A stretch of 27,205 bases of DNA from a virus: IMG/VR virus record IMGVR_UViG_3300045996_000288, positions 1 to 27,205 of that record. One strand, written 5' to 3'. The position numbers were made by a program, and so were the translations under genes. Shown piece by piece: positions 2,600 through 15,695 of the stretch; the first letter of the stretch is position 1, and each line of letters starts with the position of its first letter. The notes beneath the pieces were generated by a model. It did no database searches and was not told the origin of the DNA. It saw only the letters and a program-made list of their open reading frames with translations.

Positions 2600-3565
2600 T
2601 CAGCCCCGCAGGCCGTAAAGCCGATAAGTGCCGGTCGCGAACGACGTGCCGTCGTGATACATGAGCCGGATATGCGTCGGCGTGACGGTGGACGAGCCGG
2701 ACACGAAGCCGCCATCGTACGCAACCAGATAGCCGCTCGTGTCGATCATCGTGCCCTTGTAGTGTCCGGTCGTGTTCTTCGAGGCGAGCTTGGTGATAAG
2801 CACCTCGACTTGGCTGCTGTTGGACGCCGATGTTGACGACTGACTGATCCCGATACCGGCATAAGTCGCCGCGACCCCGACACTTGCCGTCACGGCCGCG
2901 GTGCCGCTCGTCACCAACGTTGTGGCGTAGGTGTAGCTCGTAATCGCGTAGGTCGAGCCGCTGTCATAGGAGAACCGACAGACAAGGCTCTTGCCGCCCG
3001 ACGCGGACGGGAGCGGATGGACGACGATCAGCCGATAGGCCGTAAATCCCGTGGTGAGCGCAATATCGGTCGCCGTCGAGGACAGGCTGCCCGCAGCAAG
3101 AAGCACGTCGCCGCTTCCCGTTGACGGGTTGAGAAGGATGTATGCCCCCGTTCCGCTGTCCGCGGCGCTGTCGTATTGGAACAGGTAGTGCCCCGAGGCG
3201 AGCATCGCGTTCGCCGTAGGGTCGCCCTCCGCGCCCGACTGAAACACCTTGATCTTTTTGGACGAGAACGCCGCGCCGCCGTTCGGAGTGACGGTAAGCG
3301 TGGTCGAGCCCCCGGTCGCTGCGGTCGCGCAGGTGGCCGAGAACGCAAGCCCATCGGTGAGCGCCGCGGGCGTGGTGTTGAGCGTCAGAGTATAGTCGGT
3401 CGCGGTGCCGCCGAGCGTGAGCGAGCCGCCGCCGTCGAGTTCGAGCTTCTTGATCTCGGCTTGAACCTCGCGCATCCCGTCGTTGACGGCGTTCGGGTTC
3501 ATGTTCTCGGGGAACAGGCTCGTGTTCGACGCGGGCGTCGTGCTGTAGTCGCGGATACTTGTCAT
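2600..3565 (-). CDS. Tail fibre / receptor-binding protein
   Basis: 321 residues. The N-terminus (MTSIRDYSTTPASNTS, then NPNAVNDGMREVQAEI at about 24-39) follows the virion-anchoring pattern seen at the start of many phage fibres, where a WSTT.ASN-like stretch precedes P..VND.MR. The middle is Ser/Thr/Gly/Ala rich and probably beta-structured. The C-terminus (about residues 225-321) alternates hydrophobic residues and ends GTYRLYGLRG, like the jelly-roll tips of fibres that report a sugar- or receptor-binding domain. The ATG at 3565 follows a GGGGGCAC box. The first seven residues are repeated at the start of the micro-ORF at 3912-3974, across the oppositely oriented alpha-CTD gene. Receptor specificity cannot be read. 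Confidence 0.75.
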   Translation of the reverse strand: MTSIRDYSTTPASNTSLFPENMNPNAVNDGMREVQAEIKKLELDGGGSLTLGGTATDYTLTLNTTPAALTDGLAFSATCATAATGGSTTLTVTPNGGAAFSSKKIKVFQSGAEGDPTANAMLASGHYLFQYDSAADSGTGAYILLNPSTGSGDVLLAAGSLSSTATDIALTTGFTAYRLIVVHPLPSASGGKSLVCRFSYDSGSTYAITSYTYATTLVTSGTAAVTASVGVAATYAGIGISQSSTSASNSSQVEVLITKLASKNTTGHYKGTMIDTSGYLVAYDGGFVSGSSTVTPTHIRLMYHDGTSFATGTYRLYGLRG

Positions 3566-3566
3566 T

Positions 3567-3574
3567 GTGCCCCC
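3567..3574 (-). promoter_or_regulatory. GGGGGCAC ribosome-binding leader box (copy 2)
   Basis: CACGGGGGCACA-ATG precedes the 321-residue fibre gene. With the upstream AGCACAC stretch it resembles the leader of the micro-ORF at 3974 and is part of the duplicated segment flanking the plus-strand gene. Confidence 0.5.
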
Positions 3575-3594
3575 GTGATGGGATAGGTGTGCTT

Positions 3595-3921
3595 ATGCGA
3601 ATTGTGATTGACGGCGACGGAGCGAATTGGGTTGCCCGGTGCAAGGAGCGCGGGTTGTCCGTCAGTGGGCGCTCTGCCGCGTCGGCGTTCGCCCGCTTGA
3701 TGATGGATATGCGCGACCCGCCCGAACCCAGGACAGCCGAGCCTTGGGGACTGTCCGTGCGGACCACGCACGTTATGAAGACGGCCGGGGTCGAAACCCC
3801 GGAGGATGCGGCGCAGTTCACGCGGCAGGAGTGGCTACAGAAACCGAACTTCGGGCGGAAGTCGCTGCGCGAATTGGAAGAGTGGCTGGCGGGCCACGGG
3901 ATGACATTGCCTCAACGATAA
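3595..3921 (+). CDS. Stand-alone RNA polymerase alpha C-terminal-domain-like protein
   Basis: 108 residues and the only convincing plus-strand gene. Residues 53-108 match the C-terminal domain of bacterial RpoA, the helix-hairpin-helix domain that binds UP elements and activators: LSVRTTHVMK, a GVET...FT spacer, then PNFGRKSL and an amphipathic ELEEWLAGHGMTL helix. Against E. coli alpha, R265 corresponds to R56, G296 to G87, K298 to K89, S299 to S90 and E302 to E93. N268 is replaced by H59. The first 52 residues (RIVIDGDGANWVARC and a polar linker) are not alpha-like and I do not recognise them; there is no alpha N-terminal assembly domain. The ATG at 3595 is chosen for its AGGTG five bases upstream; a TTG at 3559 would add 12 residues. 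It may compete for UP elements or activators or bind phage DNA. That function is inference; the fold call is strong. Confidence 0.85.
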   Translation: MRIVIDGDGANWVARCKERGLSVSGRSAASAFARLMMDMRDPPEPRTAEPWGLSVRTTHVMKTAGVETPEDAAQFTRQEWLQKPNFGRKSLRELEEWLAGHGMTLPQR

Positions 3922-3974
3922 GTGTCCCCATCGGCCAATCCGCCCCAGCCGCCGTAGTCGCGGATTGAAGTCAT
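3912..3974 (-). CDS. Chimeric 20-residue micro-ORF
   Basis: ATG to TGA encodes MTSIRDYGGWGGLADGDTYR. The first seven residues equal the start of the 321-residue fibre, and the last thirteen match the C-terminus of the 836-residue virion protein (GGWGGVSDGDTYR) at 11 of 13. It has its own strong leader (CTTGGGGGCACC-ATG). Similarity extends into DNA: 16 identical bases ACGGCGGCTGGGGCGG are shared with the end of the 836-residue gene. It converges with and overlaps the end of the plus-strand alpha-CTD gene by 10 bases. It may be a translated peptide or the scar of a recombination event. Confidence 0.5.
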   Translation of the reverse strand: MTSIRDYGGWGGLADGDTYR

Positions 3975-3975
3975 G

Positions 3976-3983
3976 GTGCCCCC
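3976..3983 (-). promoter_or_regulatory. GGGGGCAC ribosome-binding leader box (copy 3)
   Basis: CTTGGGGGCACC-ATG precedes the 20-residue micro-ORF. Together with AGCACAC upstream it is a second copy of the leader found before the 321-residue fibre gene. Confidence 0.45.
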
Positions 3984-4005
3984 AAGAGGAGTGTGCTAGA
4001 AGAGT

Positions 4006-4108
4006 GGCGAGGCGCGGTGATCCATTTCGTGTGGGCTGGTACGCGATCAATTGAGCGGCAGACGCACGCCCTAACAGATGCGTTCAAACCAAGCGGCCGC
4101 GCCTCGCC
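4006..4108. repeat. 12-bp perfect inverted repeat enclosing possible structured RNA
   Basis: GGCGAGGCGCGG at 4006-4017 is the exact reverse complement of CCGCGCCTCGCC at 4097-4108. Inside, TGATC (4018-4022) can pair with GATCA (4045-4049), and ACGCA (4062-4066) with TGCGT (4079-4083), giving a three-way-junction-like fold. The right arm abuts and overlaps by one base the TAG of the 836-residue gene. The 3975-4107 gap has no supported gene. It could be an mRNA end structure, a small RNA or a recombination site; the fold is drawn by eye. Confidence 0.45.
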
Positions 4109-6618
4109 TATCTGTAAGTGTCGCCATCCGAGACGCCGCCCCAGCCGCCGTCAAATCTGCTGTCCCCGCCGCCGTATGGGCCTGAATTCCCATCATATAC
4201 GCTTCCTCCGGAATATCCTCCCGGCCCACCTTCGCCCCAGCCCATGCCCCACCCGCCCGTGAACGAGCTGTCGGGGCCGTAGCCGAGGCCGGACAGAACG
4301 CTGTCGCTCAGACCGCCGAACAGGCTGTTGCCTGCCACCGAGAACGAGGCTGCAATCGGGTTCGAGTAGTCCATGCCGAACAGGTTGCCGATGCCGGGCG
4401 TGAACCCGGTCCAACCGCCGAACGTCTCCTCGAACGAGGGTCGCGCGGTCGGCACCGACGCGAAGCTCTTGGGAGCCGTGACGGGCGGGGCGGCGGGGCG
4501 CGGCGATGGTGGCACCGCAATCCGGTCAACAGTGCGCGTCCGCTGCGGCACCATGCGAGGTGTCTCGCGCTGGGCCTGTTGCTTGGGCGGCGTCAGACCG
4601 GGGACCGGCTTGTCGGTCGAGACCGGGCGTTCCGGCACGATCCCGCCGAACATGCCGAACGAGCCAAGCGGGACGCCTTTGCTCACGTTCGCCTTGCTGA
4701 ACGAAGGCGCGGGAACGTCAAGGATCTCCTTGGCCTTCTCGGGCACCATCTTGGTTTCGTAGCGAACGCGCTCCGTGAATTGCTGCACCGGGGGCGGCTC
4801 GAACCGCGGGGTGGCGGGGGCTGCCGGTGGTGCCGCTGCGGCACTGACGCCGAATTTTTCGGTCAGGCCAGAGATTAACCGATCCCGCGCCGTCTCCATT
4901 GGATCGCGCGCATAGCCCGGCGTCATGTAGTCCGAACCGTACCCGTCTGGGGTGTTCAACCGATCCGCGACCGCGCCGCCGATGTTCATGCCCGCGAGGA
5001 GTGAGGGCGGCGCTGTGTAGTCACGCTGCGGGGCGGGCGGGTTATAGCCGCCCTTCGGGGGTGCCCCGAGGTGGTCGTAGCCGGGGAAACTGTCGAGCGT
5101 CTGTTGCGCCCATTCGGGGACGTGCGGGGTGAATTCGGGCGTGATCTCCGATCCGAGCCGCGCCGGTCCCGCCATCGGGGTCGTGCGGCTTCCCGCCATC
5201 GCGGTATCGAGGCCGAAGGACGGGCCGTAGAGGCTCGGCTCCGCAAGCCGGTCGCTGAACCAATCGGGGGCTGCCGTGGGCGCGAACGGATCGGGAGCCG
5301 TCTCGAAGTTGAGCCCGTAGGCCATCGAGGCGGGGCCGACCATCGGAGCGGCTTGGGAACCGAACTCCCACTCCCCGATGGGGCGACCGAACGCCGCCGA
5401 GTTCATCGGCAGCCCGTCGCCCTCGAAGCGGTCATTAAAAAAGCCCGCCGAAGCGGGCTGTTCCGAGAAGCGGACCGCGGAGCCTTGCTGGCTCCCGTCG
5501 TAGCCGAATATTTTATCAAGGTCGGGATTGGTCGGCGCTCCCTGGAGGAGGCTCCCCATGTATTCAGAAAACATGTCGCCGCCCGGTGGTCCCGAGGGCG
5601 CATAACGGTCATCGAACGACGCTGGCGGCTCGCGTTCGGGGAGAGCGGCGTCGTTCAATACGTCTTGGAAGTTATCAAACGGCTGGATGGGGACGCTCAT
5701 CGGGTCAACCGGAGCGGGCGCGTAGGGGGTTGCGCCCCCCATCTCGGCCCACGGTGCGTTGACCGGATCAATGCCGAGATTTTCGGAGAAGTCCTCGACA
5801 TCGACTGCCGTACGGCCGACCGGGTTAATGTCGTTGCCGTAGTCCACGCCGGGGAACGTCCCGGTGGCGTCAATGACCGACCGCTGCATGGCCGGGATGG
5901 CGGCTGCAATATCGGCGGGCTGCGCGTAGCGTCCTATATCCGCCTGCACATTGTCGGGAATGTCGTACCCGAGCAGCGCAGCCGCCGCCGCGAAGTTGGC
6001 GGCCATTTCCTTGGCGTTGGGCGGGGTCTCGTCGTCGGGAAACGGGCCGAGGCCGTGATAGCCGAAGATAGCTTTGTTGGAGCCGACCCCGGCAACCTTG
6101 TCCTTGCCCTTGGCGAGCGTGCCGTAATTGGTGACGCCCCATCCGAGGTCAATCCCGAACTTCTCCTTGGCCTGGGTTGTCACGTCGAAGGCGAGTTTTG
6201 CCTTTTGGTATCGCTCGGCGTAGGGGCCTAACTCCTTGCGGATGCCAAGCTCCGCGAGCATTCCGGTTCGGAACGCCTTATAGGCATCTCGCGTCTGCGG
6301 AATGTTAAGGGTCGTGCTGTATTGGCGCGCGGTGTTGGTGTTCTTGGGCTGCCGGTTGTTGGCGACCGCCTGTGCCATCGTGCGGCCCGCGTGCGGTGCT
6401 GAGAAGATGTCGCCCAGGTTCGCGGTCTTGGCGGCAAACGCTCCCGGTCGTGCCCCACGGTTCAAGCCGCTGGCGGCGACGAGCGCCATTCCGACGAGGT
6501 TCGACTCCTCGCCCATCAGGACGCCGATGCTCAGCGCGCGCTCAATCGCGTCGTCCGAATAGATGCCCGTATCAATCGACGGGGATCTTGAACGGGAGCG
6601 GGAGCGGGATCGCGCCAT
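4108..6618 (-). CDS. Large low-complexity virion or internal protein, unknown
   Basis: 836 residues from the ATG at 6618, whose TG overlaps the upstream TGA (TGATG). I do not recognise a family. The N-terminus is an Arg-Ser dipeptide run (residues 3-12, then PS). Residues 15-200 look folded and mostly helical. The middle (about 280-760) is Pro/Ala/Gly rich with a recurring F.DR motif (FDDR, FNDR, FSDR), and the last 60 residues are Gly/Trp/Tyr rich, ending GGWGGVSDGDTYR. The terminal peptide recurs in the micro-ORF at 3912-3974. Its place after the nozzle and a series of ejection-type proteins suggests a virion internal or ejected protein, comparable in position to T7 gp16-type genes; no transglycosylase motif was seen. 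A complete intrinsic terminator lies in frame at 5437-5459. Confidence 0.75.
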   Translation of the reverse strand: MARSRSRSRSRSPSIDTGIYSDDAIERALSIGVLMGEESNLVGMALVAASGLNRGARPGAFAAKTANLGDIFSAPHAGRTMAQAVANNRQPKNTNTARQYSTTLNIPQTRDAYKAFRTGMLAELGIRKELGPYAERYQKAKLAFDVTTQAKEKFGIDLGWGVTNYGTLAKGKDKVAGVGSNKAIFGYHGLGPFPDDETPPNAKEMAANFAAAAALLGYDIPDNVQADIGRYAQPADIAAAIPAMQRSVIDATGTFPGVDYGNDINPVGRTAVDVEDFSENLGIDPVNAPWAEMGGATPYAPAPVDPMSVPIQPFDNFQDVLNDAALPEREPPASFDDRYAPSGPPGGDMFSEYMGSLLQGAPTNPDLDKIFGYDGSQQGSAVRFSEQPASAGFFNDRFEGDGLPMNSAAFGRPIGEWEFGSQAAPMVGPASMAYGLNFETAPDPFAPTAAPDWFSDRLAEPSLYGPSFGLDTAMAGSRTTPMAGPARLGSEITPEFTPHVPEWAQQTLDSFPGYDHLGAPPKGGYNPPAPQRDYTAPPSLLAGMNIGGAVADRLNTPDGYGSDYMTPGYARDPMETARDRLISGLTEKFGVSAAAAPPAAPATPRFEPPPVQQFTERVRYETKMVPEKAKEILDVPAPSFSKANVSKGVPLGSFGMFGGIVPERPVSTDKPVPGLTPPKQQAQRETPRMVPQRTRTVDRIAVPPSPRPAAPPVTAPKSFASVPTARPSFEETFGGWTGFTPGIGNLFGMDYSNPIAASFSVAGNSLFGGLSDSVLSGLGYGPDSSFTGGWGMGWGEGGPGGYSGGSVYDGNSGPYGGGDSRFDGGWGGVSDGDTYR
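5437..5459 (-). terminator. Intrinsic terminator motif inside a reading frame
   Basis: On the minus strand AGCCCGC-TTCG-GCGGGCT is followed by an unbroken T tract (six T counting the last stem base). The 7-bp GC-rich stem is closed by the very stable C(UUCG)G tetraloop, as in a textbook rho-independent terminator. It lies inside the 836-residue gene, encoding QPASAGFF, about 390 codons from its start, in the direction of transcription. Some transcripts would be expected to end here unless translation or antitermination prevents it. Confidence 0.7.
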
Positions 6619-6956
6619 CAACGGGCCTCGGGTGGGAGTGTTTTAGGAGGGCCAAGACGGCTTGGCCCTGGCTTGGAGCGCGGTGAAGGCTCGGCGGGCT
6701 TCCACCCGAAGGCTTCTTGCCCGCGCTCGTATTCACGCTGTGCGGCAGCCTTGTCGCCCTTGCCGATGTAGTCGAGAAGACGGTTGGCGGCCTGCCCTTC
6801 GGGGCTCTGGTCCCAATTGTCCTCTTCGACTTCAAGAGGGGCGCTTAGAAGGCCGGGTTTCGCCATTGCTAACGATCCTATAACGATGACAAAGACGAGG
6901 TAGGCGAACTGAACGCCGAGGTAGACGGGCAGACGCTTGAGCAGGAAACGGCGCAT
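6618..6956 (-). CDS. Single-pass membrane protein, unknown
   Basis: 112 residues from the ATG at 6956. This start is chosen because TAGGAG, formed with the upstream stop codon, lies seven bases away, and because it opens a basic RRFLLKRLP segment followed by a hydrophobic helix (about 11-31). The remainder is a charged region (40-85, with DKAAAQREYERGQEAFGW) and a proline-rich tail. The topology is that of a type II membrane protein or an uncleaved signal anchor. It sits between two large ejection-type genes and is coupled to the following one by TGATG. A role in virion assembly or in the channel for internal proteins is possible but not shown by sequence. Confidence 0.7.
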   Translation of the reverse strand: MRRFLLKRLPVYLGVQFAYLVFVIVIGSLAMAKPGLLSAPLEVEEDNWDQSPEGQAANRLLDYIGKGDKAAAQREYERGQEAFGWKPAEPSPRSKPGPSRLGPPKTLPPEAR

Positions 6957-13181: not shown

Positions 13182-15695
13182 TTAGACGAAGTACTTGCGC
13201 GGGTTCACGGGCGACCACCGCGACGGGTAGTCGTATTCGTAGGACGGCGCCGGGGCGATGACCCGAAAGTTGTTCTTGATGGTCACGAATGCTTGGTCGC
13301 CCTTGCGGATGCCGGTAAAGTCCATGCCCGAGTAGGACGCGCCGCCGTTCGCCGTCGAGCGGAAGTACATGCAGAACCCGCTCGTGGACTCGACCACGAA
13401 CGCGCCATAGGTCTGCCATGCCTGACAGATGATCTTAGCCTCGCGCCCGAGGCCGAGTGTGTCGAGGTCTAGGGTCGGGCTCAACTGGATGCGGGTGCCG
13501 CCCGGCACCGTGCCGCTGGTATGAACGTCGAAGGTCTTGGCCGGGGCCGAGACGCCTTGCTGCATCGGCTGGGTGACGTACTGATCGACGCCGAGCGCGA
13601 GCGCGTGCGGAATGAGCCCCGCCGTCAGTTCCTCGGGGAAGATCAGCCCGCCCAAGAGGCAGGCATTGGACGAGCGTCCCGTCCACGGGCCGGGCGACGT
13701 GCCCCCGGAGGGGTCCCACCATCCGGGGCCGTCGAGACGAAACACGCCCATTGCTTCCGTGGTCAGAACCCCGGCCGTGCTGCGCGCCACGCGGTAGAAG
13801 TTGAACAGCCGGTTATAGGGCCGGTCGATGATGATAAGGTGGGCGTCGCGGTCGGGTGTGCCGGTGCTGTCGGCTCCGACAGGAACGTCCGCGGTGCCCC
13901 ATTGGAAGGCGGGCGAGCCCTCGACTGGGCCGAGAACAAGCTGCCGCGGGGAGCCCGCGGCAGGCTCGGAGACGTTGACGGTCCACGACGATTGATTGAG
14001 TTGCAGCCCGTCGAACACCGACAGCGCCGACACGATGGAGGACGAGTTCGAGGCTATCGTCGGGCTTGAGCCAATGGCCGTGTTCCACGGGCTCGACGCC
14101 GAGAAGTAGGTCGAGGTCGTGGGCTCGGGATCGGGGTTCGATCCGCCGCCGTCGCCGCCTGATGCGCTCGGGTTCGGGCACGACACCGAGGTCACGGTGA
14201 TTGAGGCCGACGCCTTGAAGTTGTTCTCGACATAGAACCGGCTTGTCGTGGTCGCGGCAACGAACGTGATCGAATAGGAGCCGGGGCTGTTAATGTATTG
14301 CGTCTCGTAGTCCGCACCCGTGTCGGTGCGCTCGATGCCCCACGCCCACTGTTGAACCATCGTGGAGACGACCATCGTCACGGTGTAGGACAGCCCGACA
14401 ACCGTGGTGAACGACTGCTCGATGCCCTGGGCGTCGAGGTTGCCTGTGATCGTCACCTGTCCTGCCGTGGCGTAGCTCGGCGTCGAGGCGTTGCGCGCCG
14501 TCCAGCCTGCGCCCGCCGCGGTGTCGAACGACGAGTTGGTGATCATCTCGGCAGGGGCCGAGACGTTGACCGTAATGGTGTAGTCCGTGAAATTGGTTGC
14601 CGCGTCGGTGAGTTTGATCGGGCACAGATAGGAATTATTGGTGTCGGTGTCGCTCGGGGCCGAATAGTCCTTGGCGGTCATCGTCAGCGTCGCAGTGGTC
14701 GAGGGGTTCGACACCGTGAGCGTGAACAGGGCGCCGTCGCTGCCTGCGGGCTTGGTCCAGGTGACGGACTCGGACGCCGTGAGGGTTTGCGAGAACGCCG
14801 TCAAATTGGCGAGCGAATAGGTCTGCGACGAGAGCAGGGTCGGCGCGGTAACGTCGGTGCCGTCCGCGACGTTGGTCACGGTCAGGGTGTGCGCCGTCGT
14901 GGACGAATTGCCCGCCGTATCGGTCGCGATAACGCTAAAGTTATAGACGTTGTTGGCGCCGGTATCGAGCGGGTTCTCGTAGTCGAACGGGCCGCCCGTG
15001 ATGACGCCCGTCGAGGCGTTGATCTGAAACCGAGGGCCGTCGTCGCCCGTGAGCGCGAACGTGGCGCTCTCGTCGGCTGTAACGGTATGCGAGAAAGAGG
15101 CGTTCTCGGCGACCGTCAGGGCGGTGCTCGACGTGATGGTCGGTGCCGTGGTGTCGGGGGAGGCTTCCGAAACGTCCGTGACCGTGATGGTGAACGTCTT
15201 GTCGGCATAGCCCGACGCGCCGCCCGTCGTAATGCTGTTCGTGGCGCGGATCGACACCGAATGGCTCGTGGCGGTCTCGTAGTCGAGGAGCGCCGTTGTA
15301 ATCAGGTTGTTACCGGAAATGTCGAACTTGTTGTCGGGATCGGCCGTGATCGTATAAGTGCAAAGCGGGTTGCCGTCGTCGGCAATCGTGGCGACGGTGG
15401 TTCCAATGGCGATGTTTTCCGCGACCGTCGTGCCCGACAGCCAAATGGTCGTGGGCGACACCTGCGATCCGATGATCTGGCTAATGATCGGTTCGAGGTT
15501 CGACACCGACAGCGCATCGGTGATGGCGGACGAGATGGCCGCGGCGATGGTCGTCGTGAGCGCCGTTGCCACCGCGGCCGAAACCGCTGACGAGACCTCG
15601 CTCGTAATCAGTGCGGAGATTGCCGCCGCTGACGACACGTTCGTCGTTGCGTTGCGGTCGCGCCAGCTCGTGATGGTCGAAAAGTTCCCACTCAT
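13182..15695 (-). CDS. Multidomain tailspike / adhesin with cadherin-like repeats
   Basis: 837 residues. Residues 1-75 are Ala/Ser-rich helix, probably a trimeric virion anchor. Three cadherin-like modules follow (about 86-174, 184-275, 283-378), shown by VAEN...TVTADE, F.I...TG.I, DYE and Y.F.V.ATD.AGN...LTVTNV patterns; the first two keep the DYE and acidic residues expected to bind calcium. A GW-containing beta-sandwich (about 384-505) looks like a carbohydrate-binding or discoidin-type module. After a GGDGGG...PDPEP linker (512-525), the C-terminal 300 residues begin with SPWNT and contain DRDAHLIIID, GWWDPSGG, GLIFPEEL and IPHALAL; this block resembles a domain of bacterial secreted proteins that I cannot name. 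Likely role: host surface polysaccharide binding, perhaps cleavage. Its start overlaps the adaptor gene as ATGA. Confidence 0.75.
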   Translation of the reverse strand: MSGNFSTITSWRDRNATTNVSSAAAISALITSEVSSAVSAAVATALTTTIAAAISSAITDALSVSNLEPIISQIIGSQVSPTTIWLSGTTVAENIAIGTTVATIADDGNPLCTYTITADPDNKFDISGNNLITTALLDYETATSHSVSIRATNSITTGGASGYADKTFTITVTDVSEASPDTTAPTITSSTALTVAENASFSHTVTADESATFALTGDDGPRFQINASTGVITGGPFDYENPLDTGANNVYNFSVIATDTAGNSSTTAHTLTVTNVADGTDVTAPTLLSSQTYSLANLTAFSQTLTASESVTWTKPAGSDGALFTLTVSNPSTTATLTMTAKDYSAPSDTDTNNSYLCPIKLTDAATNFTDYTITVNVSAPAEMITNSSFDTAAGAGWTARNASTPSYATAGQVTITGNLDAQGIEQSFTTVVGLSYTVTMVVSTMVQQWAWGIERTDTGADYETQYINSPGSYSITFVAATTTSRFYVENNFKASASITVTSVSCPNPSASGGDGGGSNPDPEPTTSTYFSASSPWNTAIGSSPTIASNSSSIVSALSVFDGLQLNQSSWTVNVSEPAAGSPRQLVLGPVEGSPAFQWGTADVPVGADSTGTPDRDAHLIIIDRPYNRLFNFYRVARSTAGVLTTEAMGVFRLDGPGWWDPSGGTSPGPWTGRSSNACLLGGLIFPEELTAGLIPHALALGVDQYVTQPMQQGVSAPAKTFDVHTSGTVPGGTRIQLSPTLDLDTLGLGREAKIICQAWQTYGAFVVESTSGFCMYFRSTANGGASYSGMDFTGIRKGDQAFVTIKNNFRVIAPAPSYEYDYPSRWSPVNPRKYFV

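Follow-up and report, generated by a model that had tools for sequence, protein, structure and literature searches.

Bacteria read UP elements and many activators through the C-terminal domain of the RNA polymerase alpha subunit (aCTD), and the N-terminal domain of the same subunit, RpoA, is the part used for assembly into the polymerase and for dimerisation. Production of the aCTD alone would give a phage a simple lever on the strongest promoters of its host. Phages act on alpha by other described means: Rac of phiKMV-like phages leads to cleavage of the host alpha subunit (aCTD), and the T4 proteins Alt, ModA and ModB ADP-ribosylate it (PMC7552054). These precedents make alpha an established phage target. 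However, they involve enzymes that lead to the cleavage or modification of alpha, whereas the protein described here is a copy of the domain itself, and encoding the aCTD in this manner is a different tactic. The domain itself is not new, and phage genes of this kind sometimes appear in databases under the label 'RNA polymerase subunit alpha'; a description of free-standing or sigma-4-fused phage aCTDs as a class was not found in the open-licence literature.

Here we analyze a 27.2-kb virus fragment (the window, by which we mean the whole stretch of DNA) in which a gene for a free-standing aCTD had been predicted from the letters of the sequence. We used profile searches, structure prediction and a scan of virus genomes to characterize this gene and its relatives. 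Detached and sometimes fused aCTDs of this kind suggest a little-noticed viral route to interfering with host transcription, and they turn genes labelled hypothetical or 'RNA polymerase subunit alpha' into a testable class of regulators.

The 108-residue protein and its aCTD

The gene is an open reading frame on the plus strand at 3595-3921 of the window, encoding 108 amino acids, and is delineated by its translation, Pfam and PDB sequence matches and codon usage. Among the six frames of this interval, the plus frame is nearest in codon usage to the minus-strand virion genes and shares their pattern of GC content by codon position (0.63/0.53/0.78). Outside this gene, the window is read as virion and lysis genes on the minus strand, with the other long plus-strand ORFs lying antisense to larger minus-strand genes, in agreement with the original prediction of a lone plus-strand gene amid minus-strand late genes.

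Residues 52-98 match the Pfam RNA_pol_A_CTD profile (PF03118) with E=2.4e-9 and 37.2 bits, the curated cut-off being 23.8; the other Pfam match of the protein, SAP, is sub-threshold. The NCBIfam rpoA models match the same stretch with scores far under their whole-protein cut-offs, as is expected because the domain is detached. The closest sequence of a solved structure is that of the Caulobacter aCTD (9zum, E=9.7e-8), and the nearest solved sequences are alphaproteobacterial. A structure model predicted from an alignment of 50 phage aCTDs has a pLDDT of 87-94 across the domain, and a fold search with this model recovers 1z3e_B as the best hit (Z 10.5, rmsd 1.3 A, 58 residues) and the Caulobacter aCTD 9zum with Z 9.8 at 2.1 A over 60 residues. 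On the combined evidence of profile, alignment and predicted fold, residues 49-106 (3739-3912, plus strand) are a complete aCTD, which bears out the alpha-CTD pattern that had been noticed in the C-terminal half. A generic helix-hairpin-helix (HhH) repair protein was considered and rejected: no HhH repair family is found among the Pfam matches of the 108-residue protein, and RAD51-type HhH domains rank lower in the fold search (Z 7.3-7.7, whereas aCTDs reach 10.5). The aCTD assignment thus stands after both profile and structure were checked for a non-match or a match to HhH domains only.

The aCTD is preceded by only 48 residues, and no alpha N-terminal domain was detected by Pfam in the 108-residue protein, which, lacking this domain, would be unable to assemble into the polymerase as alpha does. 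The first ~39 residues (3595-3711, plus strand) are predicted with low confidence (pLDDT ~66) to form two short helices, and are followed by a proline-rich linker of residues 40-48 (RDPPEPRTA; 3712-3738, plus strand) that is unstructured in the model and lies at the place of the interdomain linker of alpha. The 48 N-terminal residues have no detectable relatives, as foreseen in the description of an unrelated stretch replacing the alpha N-terminal domain, and no close relatives of the whole protein were found in IMG/VR or in genome contigs. A pattern in the N-terminal half (WVARC..RGLSVSGRS..SAF) suggested a HicB-like domain; profile searches returned no match for it, and the two models, both of low confidence here, predict helices rather than strands. 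Judging from these models, the N-terminal segment is probably helical.

To describe the contact surfaces we placed them on E. coli alpha positions, which we take to mark the DNA contacts and, at 259 and 261, the contact with sigma. The alignment shows that the original residue map was correct, with R56, H59, G87, K89, S90 and E93 corresponding to positions 265, 268, 296, 298, 299 and 302. Five of the seven DNA-contact residues are identical to those of E. coli (R265, G296, K298, S299 and E302), the two changes being N268 to H and C269 to V. N268 plays an important part in DNA binding by the E. coli domain, and histidine at this position might weaken the DNA binding of the window's aCTD. Positions 257-262 read AEPWGL, with the acidic sigma-contact 261 patch changed by D259P and E261G. 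Thus, in comparison to the aCTD of RpoA (PF03118, as in the Caulobacter domain on A/T-rich DNA in 9zum), the window's protein has the same domain, fold and most DNA-contact residues, but is detached from the alpha N-terminal domain and differs in these four substitutions.

Detached aCTDs in other phages

We scanned IMG/VR by motif, using an aCTD alignment, and obtained 187 relatives. The best 80 of these 187 were retained; they are short proteins or fragments, in frames of 77-317 amino acids, a few of which are cut by contig ends, and no full-length RpoA is present among them. Removal of near-copies from the 80 left 53, with a median of 155 amino acids, in which the aCTD lies at the C-terminus in 36 cases and at the N-terminus in 15. 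Isolate phages also possess such proteins: Bacillus phage Goe8 encodes, near its left genome end, a 210-residue 'RNA polymerase subunit alpha' with an aCTD, and Ruegeria phage vB_RpoS-V16 encodes one within a 288-residue 'HTH-domain containing protein'. Like the window's protein, the other phage aCTD proteins (L011-L090, Goe8 and vB_RpoS-V16) are short and have no recognised alpha N-terminal domain; they differ in their partner segments, none is a close sequence relative of the whole 108-residue protein, and the window's gene stands apart in being reversed within a late region. The scan and the two isolates answer the earlier question of how widely phages carry this domain: unrelated phages carry detached aCTDs widely.

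A shared phage lineage was rejected as the source of this distribution, as a capsid protein of the window's type occurs in 0 of 36 aCTD-bearing records, many of which are fragments. Look-alikes in phage and plasmid collections, where opened, proved to be normal rpoA genes, either full-length or truncated at an end, some of them on mis-binned bacterial contigs. Second aCTD-like domains occur in 12 of 289 alphaproteobacterial genomes, none close to the window's aCTD, and several of these 12 stem from a split rpoA or from a degenerate domain within another protein. Two alphaproteobacterial genomes (L228 and L229) have frames of ~604 amino acids with a second aCTD-like domain, and that of L228 also has a sigma-like stretch (TLEETGQRFGGITRERVRQI).

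In the alignment of 50 phage sequences, R265 is found in 50/50, N294 in 50/50, G296 in 50/50, K298 in 48/50 and S299 in 49/50, where the stretch around 294-302 belonged to the search pattern used to collect the sequences. R265 is also present in 36 of the 37 sequences recovered through the 294-302 motif alone, the sole exception being L074, in which an insertion shifts the count; hence, its conservation is no product of the search pattern. Histidine at 268 is seen in 8 of 52 phage aCTDs. The acidic sigma-contact residues are less constant, at about 50-62%; they form a functional patch that varies widely among phage aCTDs and is no criterion for membership in the family. DNA contact is thus what phage aCTDs retain.

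In several phages the aCTD is combined with other domains recognised by Pfam. Sigma-70 region 4 and an aCTD occur in one protein in L024, L032, L067, L030 and L064, and HTH_17 and an aCTD in L068 and L070. The sigma-4-aCTD genes lie at L024:4259-4849, L032:5569-6180, L067:5467-6171, L030:1424-2245 and L064:5257-6207. These sigma-4-aCTD fusions are possible single-protein promoter binders, of a type that we did not find described in the open-licence literature searched.

The aCTD tree is based on 59 columns and hence weakly resolved. In it, L061 and L067 lie beside the RpoA of E. coli, L071 falls within the alphaproteobacterial RpoA sequences, and a group that contains L068, L030, L064 and L077 joins Bacteroidota RpoA, while the window's aCTD sits on a long branch and groups weakly with L039 and L040. 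RpoA neighbours from different phyla suggest that phages took the domain from hosts more than once, and several such captures would be the simplest reading of this weakly resolved tree. The survey thereby removes the window's gene from the status of a one-contig curiosity: unrelated phages, with proteins sharing little else, show several apparent captures from their own hosts.

Where the neighbours of other phage aCTD genes can be named, they include RecE/YqaJ exonucleases, RecT-like proteins, SSB, helicases and terminases, and most aCTD genes with nameable neighbours lie near recombination or packaging genes and are co-oriented with them. Among these the late, reversed position of the window's gene is unusual. 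The aCTD genes of L012, L011, L040, L039 and L074 are near exonuclease/RecT-type genes or the terminase large subunit. It is possible from such contexts that some phage aCTDs serve DNA handling. For the window's protein the corresponding proposal would be an aCTD-derived HhH DNA-binding protein that now functions in recombination, repair or packaging and not in transcription. The proximity of many phage aCTD genes to genes for exonucleases, RecT-like annealing proteins, SSB or terminase and the similarity in fold of RAD51-type HhH domains are in its favor, but we regard it as distinctly unlikely, given that the window's gene sits among virion and lysis genes in the opposite orientation, that in sequence and predicted fold its product resembles genuine aCTDs more than the HhH domains of repair proteins, and that transcription domains (sigma-4 or HTH) are present in several relatives.

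A candidate competitor of the host aCTD

We give a probability of about one half to the window's protein being a DNA-binding transcription modulator, which would bind A/T-rich DNA in trans and compete with the host aCTD at UP-like sites. This reading is supported by the retention of the aCTD with its DNA contacts and by the relatives in which the domain is joined to promoter-binding parts. According to this proposal, the free-standing product of the moron-like gene, in which a probably helical N-terminal segment and a proline-rich linker precede the complete aCTD, would bind A/T-rich, UP-element-like DNA in trans. Occupation of UP-like sites, or a partner brought in via the N-terminal segment, would change which promoters are strongly usable by the host polymerase, and competition with the host aCTD would lower the use of UP- and activator-dependent host promoters. 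Against a role as a modulator stand the N268H change, the fact that no sigma-70-type promoter or terminator was found, the absence of close relatives of this single sequence and the recombination or packaging context of most other phage aCTD genes with nameable neighbours.

The roles first put forward for a detached alpha-CTD were titration of UP elements or activators, bridging of a phage promoter to the host polymerase and poisoning of host transcription. With D259P and E261G the acidic sigma-contact patch is gone, which argues against a bridge to sigma for the window's protein and leaves competition for DNA sites or an adaptor acting through an N-terminal partner as the options. In the latter case, the N-terminal segment would bind polymerase, sigma or a phage protein, with the aCTD tethering it to phage promoters and thereby resulting in their activation. 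Other phages fuse aCTDs to sigma region 4 or to HTH domains, which would suit such recruitment, as does the linker, which on sequence is similar in kind to the flexible linker of alpha. However, this aCTD has lost both sigma-contact residues (259 and 261) and no binding domain is recognised in the N-terminal segment, and we see the adaptor as a somewhat unlikely alternative. Competition with the host aCTD is favoured over recruitment. More generally, we tentatively propose, at a little short of even odds, that detached aCTDs are widespread and repeatedly captured phage transcription regulators, in which the domain that the host polymerase uses to bind upstream of promoters serves as a portable module, alone or fused to sigma-4, HTH or other parts, with the window's version being a sigma-contact-deficient competitor encoded in a late region.

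The phage and the insertion site

The window's capsid protein shares 57% identity with one in a Hyphomicrobiales MAG and 56% with its counterpart in Rhizobium phage RHph_N3_2, with Sinorhizobium/Ensifer prophages being the next relatives, which points to a host that is probably a Rhizobium-like alphaproteobacterium. A related rhizobial phage encodes, near lysis-type genes, a 67-residue protein (L169:1498-1701) with a remote aCTD/HhH resemblance, which is under the cut-off for aCTD and without an equivalent of R265.

The aCTD gene lies between gene A, coding for an 837-residue proline-rich virion-region protein (4108-6621, minus strand) upstream of the insertion, and gene B, coding for a tail-fibre-like protein (2600-3565, minus strand) downstream of it. 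Over 3542-4160 the A/B boundary is duplicated, with two direct repeats, D1 and D2, around the aCTD gene. One copy of D2 covers the start codon and leader of gene B (3542-3574) and the second, 82% identical, the start of a mini-ORF (3951-3983); one copy of D1 lies beside the aCTD stop codon at the end of this mini-ORF (3919-3955) and the other, 84% identical, at the 3' end of gene A (4115-4151). The mini-ORF (3912-3974, minus strand) lies tail to tail with the aCTD gene, which it overlaps, and encodes 20 residues, MTSIRDYGGWGGLADGDTYR, in which the start of gene B is fused with the end of gene A. Such a fusion is the junction expected from a tandem duplication of the A/B boundary and, if the boundary was so duplicated, the aCTD gene would now occupy one of the two resulting spacers. 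The other A/B spacer (3984-4114) has a 17-nt inverted repeat and unusually good predicted RNA folding (z -3.8); no Rfam family was detected in 3400-4300. We rejected the idea that this spacer retains part of a second aCTD gene, as a 16-column local match was no better than shuffles.

In the related phage L172, genes A and B are adjacent with no aCTD gene between them, and none of 50 records with related capsid proteins has an aCTD over the cut-off. In its opposite orientation, sporadic presence and empty site in a relative, the gene resembles phage morons, which are insertions in late operons, and it looks like a moron-like insertion; a promoter and terminator of its own, as in morons, were not recognised in a scan for the sigma-70 consensus, which covers the sigma-70 type only, and for terminators. 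These features also bear on whether the gene is a passenger, a host-captured aCTD fragment that would be functionless and possibly unexpressed. The outcome of the promoter scan, the absence of the gene from the related phages checked and its location at a duplicated, rearranged junction are compatible with this idea, but the open frame has phage-like codon positions and the DNA-contact residues are kept even though the aCTD is only ~41% identical to alphaproteobacterial RpoA, which is unexpected for a decaying fragment; we accordingly rank it as the least likely of the explanations. Elsewhere in the window, the minus-strand gene at 13182-15695 encodes a virion-region protein with cadherin-like repeats.
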